In this document: positions 28,180 through 33,623 of the stretch, in pieces | How the letters are laid out: every line of letters begins with the position of its first letter | How positions within the stretch are numbered: the first letter of the stretch is position 1 | Assembly (NCBI GenBank): GCA_016788705.1 | Contig: JAEUSQ010000007.1 | Span: 1-64,000 of the forward strand | Length of the DNA stretch: 64,000 nucleotides | DNA from: Bacteroidetes Order II. bacterium | Lineage (GTDB): Bacteria; Bacteroidota; Rhodothermia; Rhodothermales; UBA2364 | Direction: 5' to 3' | The notes under the pieces: generated by a model | What the model was told of the DNA's origin: nothing | Databases searched by the model: none | The model's input: the letters and a program-made list of their open reading frames with translations, nothing else | Program-made: the position numbers and the translations under genes

Positions 28180-28302
28180 TTTTTATGGGTTTGTAGTTTT
28201 GTACAGTTTTGGATTTTGCAGGGAATATAACGCGGATTCTGGGTTGGGGTTGCAAAATACGGTGTTTTGGAGCAAAATGTTTTCGTTTTTAATTTAGGAT
28301 TA

Positions 28303-28809
28303 ATGCGTGTACGTAAAGGAACGGCCGAAAAAACGGTAAAGCTATCAGGTTGTTTATTAGCCGTGGACGTGGGGATTCGGACAGGATTTGCTGTGTATGA
28401 TGAAACAGGGACATTGGTTCAATATGGATCGCATAACTATGGTTCTGTATCGAGGCTCAAACAAGCCGCTTGGGGACATTTGTCGGAAATTCGGAACCTT
28501 CACGTTCTTGTCTTGGAGGGTGGAGGTACTTTGGCCGAAGTTTGGCAGCACACGGCCCAAAAGCGTGGCATCAGGGTGATACAACTCTATGCGGAGACAT
28601 GGCGTAAAGACCTCTTGTACCAACGAGAACAACGAACCGGAAAAATGGCAAAATCTTTTGCCGAAGAAGTGGCCCGGAAGGTCATTCGCGAAAGTAATTT
28701 ACCCGCACCAAAAGCGCTGCGTCATGATGCAGCAGAGGCAATTTTAGTAGGTAAGTGGGCAATCTTTTATGGAGGTGTTTCTGGTGACCTTCAAAAAGAA
28801 GGGGAATAA
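28303..28809 (+). CDS. RuvC-like RNase H-fold nuclease, uncharacterised
   Basis: 168 residues from ATG 28303; a TTG start at 28267 would add twelve. LLAVDVGIRTGFAVYDETG (D22) resembles the first strand of RuvC (DPG-x-x-x-TG), VLVLEGGG (E72) the second acidic position, and RHDAAEAILVGKWA (H141, D142, E145) the C-terminal DAADA helix of RuvC-like resolvases. The catalytic set is therefore plausibly complete. It is shorter in the middle than RuvC, so Holliday junction cutting is uncertain; phage-like or Bacteroidota resolvase-like nucleases are alternatives. It stands alone; the next gene starts 204 nt later. Confidence 0.6.
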   Translation: MRVRKGTAEKTVKLSGCLLAVDVGIRTGFAVYDETGTLVQYGSHNYGSVSRLKQAAWGHLSEIRNLHVLVLEGGGTLAEVWQHTAQKRGIRVIQLYAETWRKDLLYQREQRTGKMAKSFAEEVARKVIRESNLPAPKALRHDAAEAILVGKWAIFYGGVSGDLQKEGE

Positions 28810-29013
28810 CGTAAGGAATCTGAAAAAAAAATCTACAAGTGGTTATTTTAATCTGTGCTTGCGTTGTGCACTCCCGAAAGGGTCCGAATTTTTACGATTT
28901 TTTGGACAAACACGCTTGCAAAGAAATTGTTTGTCTTATGGATGCATAATTTGCATTGTTCGAGTCGGGCAATTTCACAAACTGGGCGGCATTTTTTTCG
29001 AGGTCATAAGCAT

Positions 29014-30168
29014 ATGATGAACCGAAGAACTTTTTTACACATAGCGGGCTTAGGGATGGCTTCCATGTATTCGGCGGAAGTGAAAGCACTTGGCAAAGAC
29101 GAGGTCCCGTTTTATTTGGGGACCTATACAGGTGTGGACCATGCGCCTCTTGGAAAGAGTGAGGGCATTTACCGGGCAGTAGTACATACCAAAACAGGTA
29201 AAATACGGTTATTGGGCTTGGTGGCAAAAGTGGATGACCCTTCTTTTTTGGCCTGTTCGCCGGATGGTCGCTACCTATTTGCTGTTCATGAACGGGATCC
29301 GGGTGAGGTTTCGGCTTATGCCATACAACCCGATGGTGGGCTTTTATTGCTCAACCGCCGCCCCACTATGGGGCCACATCCTTGTTTTGTCTCCGTAGAT
29401 CCCTCCGGAAAAGTGGTTTTGGTGGCCAATTATTCAGGTGGAAATGTGGCTTCATATAAAATAGAAGGGCATGGGCAGTTGTCTGAACCCGTTTCGGTGT
29501 ATGCTCACACAGGTAGGGGAGCAGACCCAGATCGTCAAGCTATGCCTCATGCACATGCGTTCAAAACAGCGCCCGGTGGGGAATTTGCGTATGCGGCCGA
29601 TTTAGGAACAGATAAGGTGTACGGATATCGGATCCTCGCCGAAACAGGCCTCTTACAGCCCACTGAAAATCATTTTGTCCATACTGGCACAGGGTCGGGA
29701 CCACGGCACATGGCCTTTTCTCCGAATGGTAGGTGGTTATTTATGGTGAACGAGCTGGATAATACCATCCTGAGTATCCGGCTAAATATCCAAAATGGCA
29801 AAATGACGATTAAAAACAAAAGGTCTTCATTGCCTGCAAATTTTGTTGGGACAAGCTATGTGGCAGATGTCCATTTGTCCCCCGATGGTCGGTTTATTTA
29901 TGTGAGTAATCGAGGACACAATAGCATTTTTGTCGGTAAAATCAATCTAACGAATGGTGTCATTCTGCCTGTCCAACAAATTGCTTGCGGAGGAGATTGG
30001 CCCCGTAATTTTGGCATGGACCCGTCCGGCAAACTATTGTTGGTGGCGAACGAACGTTCCGGAAAGGTGGTGTCTTTTCAAAGAAATAGCCGAAGCGGAC
30101 AGTTAACCCCAACAGGTAATGAACTGGCCTTGCCTAAACCCGTATGTATTGCGTTCCCAAAGACATAA
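29014..30168 (+). CDS. Tat-exported lactonase-like seven-bladed propeller (6-phosphogluconolactonase family)
   Basis: 384 residues from ATG 29014. The start is chosen because NRRTFLHIAGLGMASMYSAE has a twin-arginine motif and hydrophobic stretch, with GAGG (29000-29003) as a fair ribosome binding site; longer readings into the upstream gap look non-coding. The mature part has repeated blades (DDPSFLACSPDGRYLFAVHE; PHCFV; GSGPRHMAFSPNGRWLFMVN; DVHLSPDGRFIYVSNRGHNS) and the family signatures LGTYTGVDH and GGDWPRNFGMDPSGKLLLVA. Exported members act on sugar lactones or other esters. Weak hint to sugar acid metabolism only. Confidence 0.85.
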   Translation: MMNRRTFLHIAGLGMASMYSAEVKALGKDEVPFYLGTYTGVDHAPLGKSEGIYRAVVHTKTGKIRLLGLVAKVDDPSFLACSPDGRYLFAVHERDPGEVSAYAIQPDGGLLLLNRRPTMGPHPCFVSVDPSGKVVLVANYSGGNVASYKIEGHGQLSEPVSVYAHTGRGADPDRQAMPHAHAFKTAPGGEFAYAADLGTDKVYGYRILAETGLLQPTENHFVHTGTGSGPRHMAFSPNGRWLFMVNELDNTILSIRLNIQNGKMTIKNKRSSLPANFVGTSYVADVHLSPDGRFIYVSNRGHNSIFVGKINLTNGVILPVQQIACGGDWPRNFGMDPSGKLLLVANERSGKVVSFQRNSRSGQLTPTGNELALPKPVCIAFPKT

Positions 30169-30185: not shown

Positions 30186-30203
30186 GTGACACACATATGT
30201 CAC
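30186..30203. promoter_or_regulatory. Perfect 18-bp dyad before the exonuclease/DUF488 operon
   Basis: GTGACA-CACATA-TGTCAC is a perfect inverted repeat centred 55 nt upstream of the first start codon of the operon. The size fits a dimeric regulator's operator. It differs from the CRP consensus because GTGA and TCAC are 10 bases apart, not 6. No regulator gene is nearby. Confidence 0.5.
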
Positions 30204-30249: not shown

Positions 30250-31206
30250 ATGATCAAATTTATTGCTGATGAACTCTGGGCTTTTGATGCCGAGTGGATC
30301 CCAGACCCGGTGGCAGGTCGGATTTTGTATAAATTACCTGCGGCAATGTCCGACGGCGAGGTGATGCAACACATGTGGCGGCAAGCATCCAAGTCCAGAA
30401 GCCTCATTCCAACCGAGGCCGACCGCGCATTTGAAACACATAATTTTTTGGATTATGGCGTAGAACGGCCTTACCTGAAAACCAATATCTGTCGTTTGGT
30501 CTCTGTTTCTATTGTAATTCGTCGGAAGGTAGGTGCAGGAAAGGCAAAACTCTACCTTAGGTCCAGTCCTGATAATTGGAGCGATGTTGTTTCGGCGAAA
30601 GAACGGAACATCATTCACAAGTTTTTGGGTGGTTTAGAGCAAAAAATGGATGAACCAGATGCTACGTCCACCTTTAATGCAAAGGGCTTCAAAAAAGGCG
30701 TGCAATTGGTCGGGTATAACTCGATGGGGGCTGATCTGAGTATTTTTCTACAGCGTGCTATTGTGCATGGTCTTCCATTTAAGAAGCTAAACACACGGCC
30801 TACGTGGGCAAAAGATGGTGTGGACTATTTTGATGACAAAAGCCCTTATAACATAGATATGCAGAAGTTGGTGGGTGGTTTTGGACGATCGAATCCATCA
30901 TTAAATGAATTGGCAGCCCTTTCTGGCATTCCGGGTAAAATGGGAACGGACGGCAACGATGTGGCTTTGTTGTGGCTGGATGGCAAGTTGGACGAAATTG
31001 TGAAGTACAATGAATACGATGCCCTTACCACTTATTTGGTGTTTTTGCGAATGGCGCATTTTGCGGGTATTTTTACCCCACAAGAATATGAATATGAACA
31101 ACAATTGGTGGCTGACCTTATTGCAGACTTGTCACAACAAGAACGCTATGCCCACCTGATTGCCTACCAAGAAGAATGGAACCGACTGAAATCCCTACTC
31201 CAGTAG
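30250..31206 (+). CDS. Predicted 3'-5' exonuclease of the DNA polymerase B type (DnaQ-like)
   Basis: 318 residues. Exo I is LWAFDAEWIPDP (D13, E15), exo II GYNSMGADLSIF (N157, D162) and exo III KYNEYDALTTYLVFLR (Y253-x3-D257). The four acidic residues that bind two metals are all present, matching the stand-alone PolB exonuclease-like family (DNA_pol_B_exo2). No polymerase domain is attached. First gene of a four-gene run; the next gene starts 31 nt before this one ends, so the products are probably made in step. A role in DNA or RNA end processing is likely; the target is unknown. Confidence 0.85.
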   Translation: MIKFIADELWAFDAEWIPDPVAGRILYKLPAAMSDGEVMQHMWRQASKSRSLIPTEADRAFETHNFLDYGVERPYLKTNICRLVSVSIVIRRKVGAGKAKLYLRSSPDNWSDVVSAKERNIIHKFLGGLEQKMDEPDATSTFNAKGFKKGVQLVGYNSMGADLSIFLQRAIVHGLPFKKLNTRPTWAKDGVDYFDDKSPYNIDMQKLVGGFGRSNPSLNELAALSGIPGKMGTDGNDVALLWLDGKLDEIVKYNEYDALTTYLVFLRMAHFAGIFTPQEYEYEQQLVADLIADLSQQERYAHLIAYQEEWNRLKSLLQ

Positions 31207-31775
31207 TTCCTATATTTACAATTGGTTACGGGAATATGACGTTGACCAATTTTGTAGAGAAACTTCGCCAGCACGAGATTCGTTTTTTGGCTGATGTGCG
31301 TTCGCAGCCGTATTCACGGTATCAGATAGATTATAATAAAGCCCAATTGGCTGAAAATCTGGCCCAATACGGAATCCGCTATGTGTTTTTGGGAGATGCG
31401 CTTGGCGGGAGGCCGCCTGATCCGGATTGTTATACCCAAGACGGAAAAGTGGCGTATGAACGTTGTCGGGAGAAACCTTTTTATCAGGACGGGATGAAAC
31501 GGCTGGAGACCGCCTTCGCCAAACAAGTCCGACTGGCCTTGATGTGTGGATGTGCAAAGCCGGAAATGTGCCATCGCAGCAAATTAATAGGGGTCTCATT
31601 AAGCCGTCTGCATATTCCAGTGATGCACATTTTGGGAGATGGAACGTTGATGTCGCAAGAAACAGTGATGCGATTATTGGAACCAGCGCCTGATTTGTTT
31701 GGAGAATCTCCCAAATTGGGTACGTCTCGTAAAAGTTATCGTATAGAAGAAGACCAAGAACCGCCTTATTCATGA
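31176..31775 (+). CDS. DUF488 family protein (first copy)
   Basis: 199 residues. DUF488 signatures: IFTIGYGNMTLTNFVEKL, LADVRSQPYSRYQIDYNK (Arg-x-x-Pro-x-Ser-Arg), and the cysteine motif ALMCGCAKPEMCHRSKLIG (C124, C126, C132-H133-R134). It overlaps the exonuclease gene by 31 nt and the next DUF488 gene by 4 nt (ATGA). The family has no firmly assigned function; the Cys-His-Arg pattern suggests metal or nucleic acid contact. The C-terminal 30 residues are a charged tail. This copy keeps all conserved positions and is the more canonical of the two. Confidence 0.88.
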   Translation: MEPTEIPTPVVPIFTIGYGNMTLTNFVEKLRQHEIRFLADVRSQPYSRYQIDYNKAQLAENLAQYGIRYVFLGDALGGRPPDPDCYTQDGKVAYERCREKPFYQDGMKRLETAFAKQVRLALMCGCAKPEMCHRSKLIGVSLSRLHIPVMHILGDGTLMSQETVMRLLEPAPDLFGESPKLGTSRKSYRIEEDQEPPYS

Positions 31776-32260
31776 ATCTTTTTACCATTGGTGTATATGG
31801 TTTCACCGAAAAAACCTTCTTTGAAACCTTAAAGACCCATGAAATTGACGTTTTGGTGGATGTTCGGCGGCGGCGTGGGGTACGCGGCAAAGTCTTTGCA
31901 TTTGCCAACCGCGTCCGCTTAGAAAGCCAGCTTGCAAAAGAGGGGATGGCTTACCTCTACTTGCCAGAATTGGCACCTACCGACGAGATTCGTGCCTTGG
32001 CGACACACGTGGATGCAAGCGTAGGCGTCACCAAGCGAACGCGCCAAGTGTTGCCAGAATCTTTCTGTTTGGCCTATCAAGACCAAGTTTTGTCTCCATT
32101 ATCCCGTGCTGATGTGCGCCTCAAACTCCCTCCACAAGCAACAAGGGTGGCGTTATTGTGCGTGGAAGCCAATCCTCATGCGTGTCACCGACAATTGGCC
32201 GCAGCGTGGTTGTCTGAACCTAACGAGGTGCCTGTGAAACATCTTATCCCCACATCATGA
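31772..32260 (+). CDS. DUF488 family protein (second, divergent copy)
   Basis: 162 residues. The start MNLFTIGVYGFTEKTFFETL and DVLVDVRRRRGVRGKVFAFA replace the canonical RSxPxSR segment with an Arg-rich stretch. The C-terminal motif ALLCVEANPHACHRQLAAAWL (C130, C138-H139-R140) is kept. It is about as similar to the first copy as two distant family members, so the pair is not a recent duplication. Two non-identical copies in tandem suggest a heterodimer or two related activities. Overlaps by 4 nt at both ends with its neighbours. Confidence 0.87.
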   Translation: MNLFTIGVYGFTEKTFFETLKTHEIDVLVDVRRRRGVRGKVFAFANRVRLESQLAKEGMAYLYLPELAPTDEIRALATHVDASVGVTKRTRQVLPESFCLAYQDQVLSPLSRADVRLKLPPQATRVALLCVEANPHACHRQLAAAWLSEPNEVPVKHLIPTS

Positions 32261-32928
32261 AAGTATTAATCGTATCCCGAACGGTTGTAGAACGCAGGAG
32301 GTGTATTGGTGCATTGGTCAGAACCAATGATGGTTATCAAAGTTTGCGGCTAATGGATGCACGCATTTTGCCAACAGGTGCATTTTGGACAGAAAGTGCC
32401 CCATTTCGGATTGGCGAGTTATGGGAGATCGAACAAGGCCCCGCAGCTTCCATACGCCGGCCACACAACGAAGATGTTTTGGTGTATGATTACACATTGT
32501 CCAACTCCTCGTTTACAGACCCACAACGCCTCGATGAATGGCTGCGGTTTCACTTGCATAAGATAGATCCTCCCTGTATTTGGGAAGGTTCACCAGAAAA
32601 CCTGTTTGGCGGAAGGCTCCAAAGTACCCGTAAGTATAATGGACGTGGATTTGTTACAAAAGCAGATTTACCAGAAGTGAGTACAGGTTTTTGGATCCCC
32701 GATCAGCCACTAAAAAAGGTTTTGTATGAGGGAAAGGCCAGTTATTTGTACGACAATGGGCTTCAAAAAGCGCGGGTTGGTAAGTTGAAATACATTGGTG
32801 AACCCGCGCCTCCCGATCAGATTCCGGCGGGTACCTTGGTGCGGGTTTCCCTTTCGCGCTGGATCGAACTACCGCCTTATCCGGAGGCGTGTTGGCTGAT
32901 GTTGTCGGGCTGGTATGGGATGCTTTAG
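32257..32928 (+). CDS. Probable dual-OB domain protein, last gene of the DUF488 operon
   Basis: 223 residues, soluble, no signal peptide. An N-terminal beta-rich part (MKVLIVSRTVV; LRLMDARI; FRIGELWEIE) is followed by a helical linker (residues about 85-110) and a second beta-rich part (PAGTLVRVSLSRWIELPPYP, then CWLMLSGWYG) that fits the layout of the dual OB-fold proteins reported beside DUF488. OB folds bind nucleic acid or peptides. Assignment is by resemblance and neighbourhood. The 3' end overlaps the convergent trkA gene by 4 nt. Confidence 0.65.
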   Translation: MKVLIVSRTVVERRRCIGALVRTNDGYQSLRLMDARILPTGAFWTESAPFRIGELWEIEQGPAASIRRPHNEDVLVYDYTLSNSSFTDPQRLDEWLRFHLHKIDPPCIWEGSPENLFGGRLQSTRKYNGRGFVTKADLPEVSTGFWIPDQPLKKVLYEGKASYLYDNGLQKARVGKLKYIGEPAPPDQIPAGTLVRVSLSRWIELPPYPEACWLMLSGWYGML

Positions 32929-33623
32929 AACGAGGCCTCCATATGCTCACTGAAGTTTCTTAGGTCGGAATATAGCCCGAAAAGCACCAAAATATCGCCT
33001 TCCTCTAATGTGGTATCGGGGGTAAGAACGCCCAATACATTGCGGCCACGTACTGTTTTCCCAAAGATATTTTTGGAAATGGTCTTCCGTACCACCGTTA
33101 CCACATTCAGCCCCCATTTATTGCGCAACTGAGAGTTTTGGATGGTTTTCCCGATGAGTTTTTTGGGTAGTTCAATTTCAGCGATTTCAAATTTATTGTC
33201 CAAGGCCAAAGACTTAACCGCACCTTTAAGACCAAATTTTTTCGAGAACTCGTCGGCATATTCGGCTTCTGGTTCAATAATTTGGTTGACCTCCATCGTT
33301 TCTAAGATGGTATGATGAATAGGAGAAATGGCACGAGCGATGATTTTGGTTTGGCAAAGTTTTTTGAGCAATGCCACAGTGGTTACCGAAGCGCCTAAGT
33401 CTTCTCCGATACTTACAATAATGTAATCAGATTCGTCCAGCGGAATACGCCGTAAAACCAATTCATCACTGCTGTCTGCACAGATGGTATGGGTCAGTTT
33501 ATCTTTATACATTTCGATATGGGCAGAACTATTGTCCACGCCCATCACTTCGTGTCCCTCTTCAATAAGGCGTATTCCTAAGTGTGAACCGAAGTTTCCT
33601 AGTCCGATAATAATAAATTTCAT
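32925..33623 (-). CDS. Potassium uptake protein TrkA/KtrA (RCK regulator)
   Basis: 232 residues. The Rossmann start MKFIIIGLGNFGSHLGIRLI, then GHEVMGVDNSS, is the NAD(H)-binding RCK_N domain (1-130). VVTVVRKT to LEEGDILVLFG forms the RCK_C ligand domain (about 145-225). RCK proteins form rings under Ktr/Trk channels and gate them with nucleotides. The gene lies 11 nt downstream of the matching membrane subunit gene on the same strand. Confidence 0.93.
   Translation of the reverse strand: MKFIIIGLGNFGSHLGIRLIEEGHEVMGVDNSSAHIEMYKDKLTHTICADSSDELVLRRIPLDESDYIIVSIGEDLGASVTTVALLKKLCQTKIIARAISPIHHTILETMEVNQIIEPEAEYADEFSKKFGLKGAVKSLALDNKFEIAEIELPKKLIGKTIQNSQLRNKWGLNVVTVVRKTISKNIFGKTVRGRNVLGVLTPDTTLEEGDILVLFGLYSDLRNFSEHMEASF

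Follow-up and report, generated by a model that had tools for sequence, protein, structure and literature searches.

A putatively DNA-damage-regulated variant of PDC-M45, a candidate defence cassette, with an added exonuclease gene in one genus of Rhodothermales

DUF488 cassettes and the catalogued candidate PDC-M45

DUF488 proteins are widespread and, to our knowledge, have no established function. Their Cys...CysHisArg motif, which we take to be the active-site signature of the family, predicts a Cys-based enzyme. DNA-end-processing conflict systems are said to have been predicted for the RapZ-C-DUF488-DUF4326 clade by Burroughs & Aravind in 2023 (NAR Genomics Bioinformatics). PADLOC catalogues one arrangement of such genes as PDC-M45, in which component A is a DuOB protein and components B and C are DUF488 proteins. 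In the literature, PDCs figure as unvalidated candidates of the "guilt-by-embedding" kind (PMC12988326; PMC10855318), and a literature search for a paper naming PDC-M45 found none.

The triad recurs on plasmids and chromosomes, including plasmids of Rhodothermus, Allochromatium, Agrobacterium, and Rhodovastum, and genomes of the phylum Bacteroidota. It adjoins a CRISPR-Cas locus on R. marinus pRMAR01, cas1/csx16/csm6 on Allochromatium pAt1, and CBASS, an ImmA/IrrE-type gene, TcmP, and an integrase on Agrobacterium pAt1D1108a. The PDC-M45A models match the plasmid DuOB proteins of Allochromatium, Agrobacterium, and Rhodovastum, each encoded directly ahead of the same two DUF488 genes. At the Pfam level, DuOB is present in 6 of 297 genomes of the phylum, five of them with both DUF488 genes adjacent, and one of these five loci is degraded (partial DuOB match, frameshifted gene B). 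The sixth locus (G222, L069:9555-10295) has a lone DuOB at a site where two sister species carry DuOB-dA-dB, dA and dB being the two DUF488 genes, and it reads as a joint loss of both. DuOB-DUF488-DUF4326 cassettes, a sister system of PDC-M45, reside on small plasmids of Citrobacter, Klebsiella, Acinetobacter, and Moraxella (L059-L063), and some of them adjoin restriction-modification (R-M) or toxin-antitoxin genes.

The locus described here lies in a window of 64,000 nucleotides, the whole stretch of DNA analysed (contig JAEUSQ010000007.1, positions 1 to 64,000, of a Bacteroidetes Order II. bacterium). The window genome belongs to the genus of MAG UBA2364 ("Bacteroidetes bacterium"), and its order also contains Rhodothermus. 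The locus comprises four plus-strand ORFs, whose consecutive overlaps are 31, 4, and 4 nt. The features of the unit and its neighbours are as follows.

28855..30168, + strand: lactonase-type 7-bladed propeller, upstream neighbour outside the unit
30186..30203, no strand: inverted repeat GTGACACACATATGTCAC, a recA-type (SOS-like) putative operator, 46 nt upstream of the start codon of the exonuclease gene
30250..31206, + strand: DEDDy 3'-5' exonuclease, PolB-exonuclease-like (PF10108), 318 aa; Pfam DNA_pol_B_exo2, E 3.9e-41
31176..31775, + strand: DUF488 protein A, PDC-M45B type, 199 aa; Pfam DUF488, E 3.4e-21; PADLOC PDC-M45B, E 1.3e-47
31772..32260, + strand: DUF488 protein B, PDC-M45C type, 162 aa; Pfam DUF488, E 7.3e-17; PADLOC PDC-M45C, E 8.3e-16
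32257..32928, + strand: DuOB protein with tandem OB folds, a divergent counterpart of PDC-M45A, 223 aa; Pfam DuOB, E 1.7e-6
32925..33623, - strand: TrkA-type potassium regulator, convergent, downstream boundary of the unit; same neighbour in congeners G001 and G002

By their profile matches, genes 2-4 are the already catalogued PDC-M45 triad. Both DUF488 proteins score above the Pfam DUF488 (PF04343) cut-off, and protein B additionally matches DUF488-N3a (Pfam, E 1.8e-7). An OB-like protein had been said to close the set, and Pfam DuOB (PF22557) agrees at 28.6 bits against a cut-off of 27, with profile positions 1-210 covered. The PDC-M45A models leave the DuOB proteins of the window, G002, and R. 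marinus unmatched at E <= 0.1, though all of them pass Pfam DuOB. Because its DuOB fails these models, the locus is treated as a variant and not as a plain member, and in sequence terms the window holds a divergent, reordered version of PDC-M45 (B-C-A). The initial annotation had proposed an undescribed system. This is only partly right and does not stand for the triad, which is in PADLOC and whose domains are named in Pfam. On sequence evidence, the gain of an exonuclease and a recA-type operator by a candidate defence triad in one genus is what is new here, and the locus is a real and informative variant, not an undescribed system.

The exonuclease, the DUF488 pair and the DuOB protein

The overlapping genes had been read as one operon, which the exact ORF coordinates confirm together with the overlap and order seen in a congener. 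Since the 31-nt overlap and the gene order are kept at 73% DNA identity and purifying selection acts on each of the four genes (dN/dS about 0.04-0.16 across whole genes), the arrangement is not a matter of chance. DUF488 protein B is the fastest evolving, with 51% identity to G002 versus 79-82% for the other three. The lactonase was considered as an operon member and ruled out, because the operator separates it from the exonuclease. Upstream of the lactonase, the window encodes at 28267-28809 a genus-conserved RNase H-fold protein of 180 aa, without a Pfam match and with a weak Holliday junction resolvase match (phrog_1770, E 5e-4). A foreign base composition was looked for at the operon and none was found, its GC being 0.45-0.51 versus 0.48 for the window.

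The catalytic residues of the exonuclease are complete, as had been claimed: D13, E15, D162, Y253, and D257 form the DEDDy set and are invariant in an alignment across 14 homologues. Its profile matches B-family polymerase exonuclease domains in the PDB. The exonuclease is joined to the triad in 3 of the 19 DuOB loci inspected, and these represent all three species of the window's genus, in which exonuclease and triad are syntenic with the same overlaps and neighbours. The four-gene order expected across genomes is thus present in 3/3 species of the genus and missing from the other DuOB loci inspected, which lack the exonuclease; the DUF488-exonuclease pairing, proposed as a clue to function, is not constant. 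From this distribution, the exonuclease is a genus-specific addition and not part of PDC-M45 itself. No relatives of DuOB or the exonuclease were found in the phage records searched.

Such a distribution could also mean that the exonuclease is an independent gene which drifted beside a PDC-M45 cassette and has only the promoter in common with it. Of 297 phylum genomes, 205 encode PF10108 proteins, no DUF488 or DuOB gene adjoins any of the best 27 non-genus PF10108 loci inspected, and the other cassettes manage without an exonuclease, all of which agrees with independence. Against it stand the overlap and order kept through divergence and the single operator ahead of all four genes. Moreover, PF10108 exonucleases are rare in the window's order, and the window protein has 43-44% identity to homologues of another family versus 22-23% to those of its own class, so it was probably acquired. 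We regard mere adjacency as improbable, and favour the exonuclease as a gained member of the operon.

The two DUF488 proteins are different from each other and both retain Cys-His-Arg, in line with the initial annotation. The invariant Cys...Pro..CysHisArg comprises C124/P129/C132-H133-R134 in protein A and C130/P135/C138-H139-R140 in protein B. Where Cys-Ala-Glu is usual, protein A has Cys-Gly-Cys or Cys-Ala-Cys in the window and in Rhodothermus, and protein B retains Cys-x-Glu. The window genome has two DUF488 genes in all, both at this locus. A genome-wide scan with protein A returned one close relative only. A redox- or metal-sensitive step had been suggested for DUF488; it is rejected, as nothing beyond Cys and His speaks for it and the motif is presumably that of the family's active site. 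The model of protein B (pLDDT 94) places the catalytic Cys at a strand end ahead of a helix, as expected. This model has no significant match among PDB structures, and the rhodanese/phosphatase-type fold given for DUF488 in the literature is therefore not confirmed by structure. By sequence, no solved relatives of DUF488 or DuOB were found in the PDB.

The 28 best-ranked PDB matches of the DuOB model (pLDDT 82, five sequences in the alignment) are HIN-200 domains, the first with a Foldseek E of 5e-4, a probability of 0.99, and a TM of about 0.33. In a viral structure library, LEF-3, a tandem-OB ssDNA binder, ranks first for the model. The DuOB sequence profile matched no sequence in the PDB, and the likeness to HIN-200 is one of the fold model only. 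The modelled resemblance supports DNA binding, not homology. Nucleic-acid recognition coupled to processing, as first proposed, is upheld as an interpretation of the predicted proteins.

In G001, one contig enters gene B up to the counterpart of window position 31982 and then runs into an HTH ORF and the start of an apparent type I hsdM, and the other flank resumes at window position 31987 after an apparent hsdR tail; hsdM and hsdR were read by eye, and the insertion is inferred from two contig ends (L024:6219-6687, L103:10053-10921). The same gene B also has an early frameshift. A type I R-M module thus appears to be inserted in the second DUF488 gene of G001, which would be a natural knock-out by another defence system and fits defence turnover. 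As gene B is broken, the set is dispensable there.

The disruption in G001 bears on the view that the locus is a strict anti-phage system, in which DuOB would sense invading DNA, the DUF488 pair and the exonuclease would destroy or disable it, repair would be uninvolved, and the operator would sense phage damage. The fast divergence of gene B and the R-M-like module within it argue for this, together with the listing of PDC-M45 as a defence candidate, the CRISPR, CBASS, ImmA/IrrE-type, and TcmP neighbours of the triad, the R-M neighbours of the related DUF4326 cassette, plasmid carriage, and a very patchy spread (window-type DuOB in 5 of 245 class genomes, namely three species of the window's genus and two Rhodothermus). 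However, the genus locus is fixed between ordinary genes without defence neighbours, and its operator is common to recA, ssb, and PARP. A purely anti-phage role is on the whole unlikely, though it deserves some weight. The expectation of variable islands holds across lineages, with their plasmids and defence neighbourhoods, and fails inside the genus.

The recA-type operator and its putative regulon

Reported SOS operators of Bacteroidetes and Balneolaeota are GGA-N5-TCC, CTAA-N5-TTAG, and the direct repeat TTACACATATTTTWTACATA (PMC8565304, PMC7739468). A published SOS operator for the window's order, Rhodothermales, was looked for in the literature and none was found. Alignment of the upstream gap of three species reveals the inverted repeat GTGACA-N6-TGTCAC, conserved in the window genome, G001, and G002. 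This perfect dyad is the sole site with 0-1 mismatch in the window, and elsewhere in the window genome GTGAC-N8-GTCAC occurs at one other site only, 58 nt before recA. With at most one mismatch, GTGACA-N6-TGTCAC has 7 sites in the window genome (G000) versus 1 for the reversed control. A recA upstream site with <=2 mismatches is present in 22 of 29 genomes of the order versus 51 of 5800 shuffled sequences (0.9%). Besides the exonuclease operon, the genes with a species-conserved site upstream are recA, the divergent ssb and mazG, a WGR-PARP gene, and an FtsK-like pair. In the window genome, these four sites are located at G000:C57:15724 (recA), C18:139543 (ssb/mazG), C13:1825 (409-aa WGR-PARP protein), and C42:19624 (two-gene FtsK-like membrane set).

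The RTGACA-N6-TGTCAY sites form a putative DNA-damage regulon and look like an unreported SOS operator for the order. Since the operator also occurs at recA across the order, the operon is probably DNA-damage-inducible. This operator is the most telling clue at the locus, and the initial annotation missed it. In the window genome, recO is immediately followed by two canonical lexA genes in tandem (G000:C59:168184-169201), and a third lexA-like gene lies on C49. Near the tandem genes there is no site at <= 3 mismatches, and the third has a single 3-mismatch match, about 580 nt upstream. An SOS regulon would have its operator both at recA, as is found here, and at lexA for autoregulation, as is not. 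Since the operator is absent at all the lexA-like genes, we infer LexA as its binder and do not read it from the sites.

Perfect operator copies, GTGACACGGAATTGTCAC, also occur in Rhodothermus (L045:6468-6485; L030:12083-12100; L028:17712-17729). Those of L045 and L030 fall within a CRISPR leader region. The array, with 25 repeats in G004 and two in R. marinus DSM 4252, is followed immediately by dA-dB-DuOB. Damage-linked CRISPR transcription is a possible consequence in Rhodothermus. The leader copy of R. marinus does not count as independent proof for the cassette, since the same plasmid has the operator at a second site too. No LexA boxes were recognised at proteobacterial and other-family cassettes outside the genus, so damage control is not a family property.

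An operator common to recA, ssb, PARP, and FtsK-like genes would also suit a domesticated DNA-repair operon, that is, a former defence cassette which has given up its action against phage and cleans up damaged ends of the chromosome instead. Synteny throughout the genus, purifying selection, the added DNA-type exonuclease, and fixed chromosomal sites in another family too are consistent with domestication. On the other hand, the set is missing from nearly all relatives, gene B is lost in G001, and related cassettes sit in defence neighbourhoods. Complete conversion to repair is considered quite unlikely.

Proposed function and comparison with described systems

The explanation preferred here, which we hold with evenly divided confidence, is that the locus is a DNA-damage-regulated, chromosomally fixed PDC-M45 variant extended by an exonuclease, with DNA-end processing as its predicted activity. 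A DNA break or replication stall, from damage or phage, would release the recA-type repressor, probably LexA, and the operon would be expressed alongside RecA and SSB. DuOB, with two tandem OB folds, would bind DNA, the two Cys-based DUF488 enzymes would have as substrates DNA termini or nucleotides that are blocked or chemically unusual, and the PolB-type exonuclease would then resect from the 3' end. This damage-inducible DNA-end-processing module may serve defence, repair, or both. A bolder pathway, to which we attach very little probability, can be imagined, in which the HIN-like tandem-OB protein presents ends, the DUF488 pair removes or adds a nucleotide-derived adduct, for example ADP-ribose left by the co-regulated WGR-PARP, and the PolB-type exonuclease trims. 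If true, bacterial PARP, the SOS response, and anti-phage defence would all be parts of a single circuit.

The preferred explanation would link a candidate phage-defence cassette with the DNA-damage response. The operator common to recA tells which treatment should induce the set, and DNA as the substrate is suggested by DuOB and the added exonuclease, so that DUF488 function is open to direct tests.

PDC-M45 and the window locus have in common two different adjacent DUF488 genes and a DuOB gene, overlapping or nearly so, and the B and C models match the window. In PDC-M45 the DuOB gene comes first, whereas in the window it comes last and its product is too divergent for the PDC-M45A models. 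The window locus further differs in the extra exonuclease in front, the recA-type operator, and the lack of a defence island in its genus. The DuOB-DUF488-DUF4326 cassette likewise has DuOB, a PDC-M45C-like DUF488, and one further gene in a row, but DUF4326 replaces DUF488-A and there is no exonuclease. DNA_pol_B_exo2 exonucleases (PF10108) resemble the window protein in their DEDDy catalytic residues and length, and in contrast are elsewhere, at the loci seen in this analysis, uncoupled from DUF488/DuOB genes. The HIN-200 domains of IFI16/AIM2-type innate DNA sensors are alike in having tandem OB folds and are the best structural match of the DuOB model, but sequence similarity is absent and the TM-score is low, which makes this a fold resemblance and not membership. 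Here, recA and ssb have an operator in common with other genes of DNA metabolism, as in the SOS regulons of Bacteroidetes and Balneolaeota, but its sequence, RTGACA-N6-TGTCAY, is unlike those reported there.
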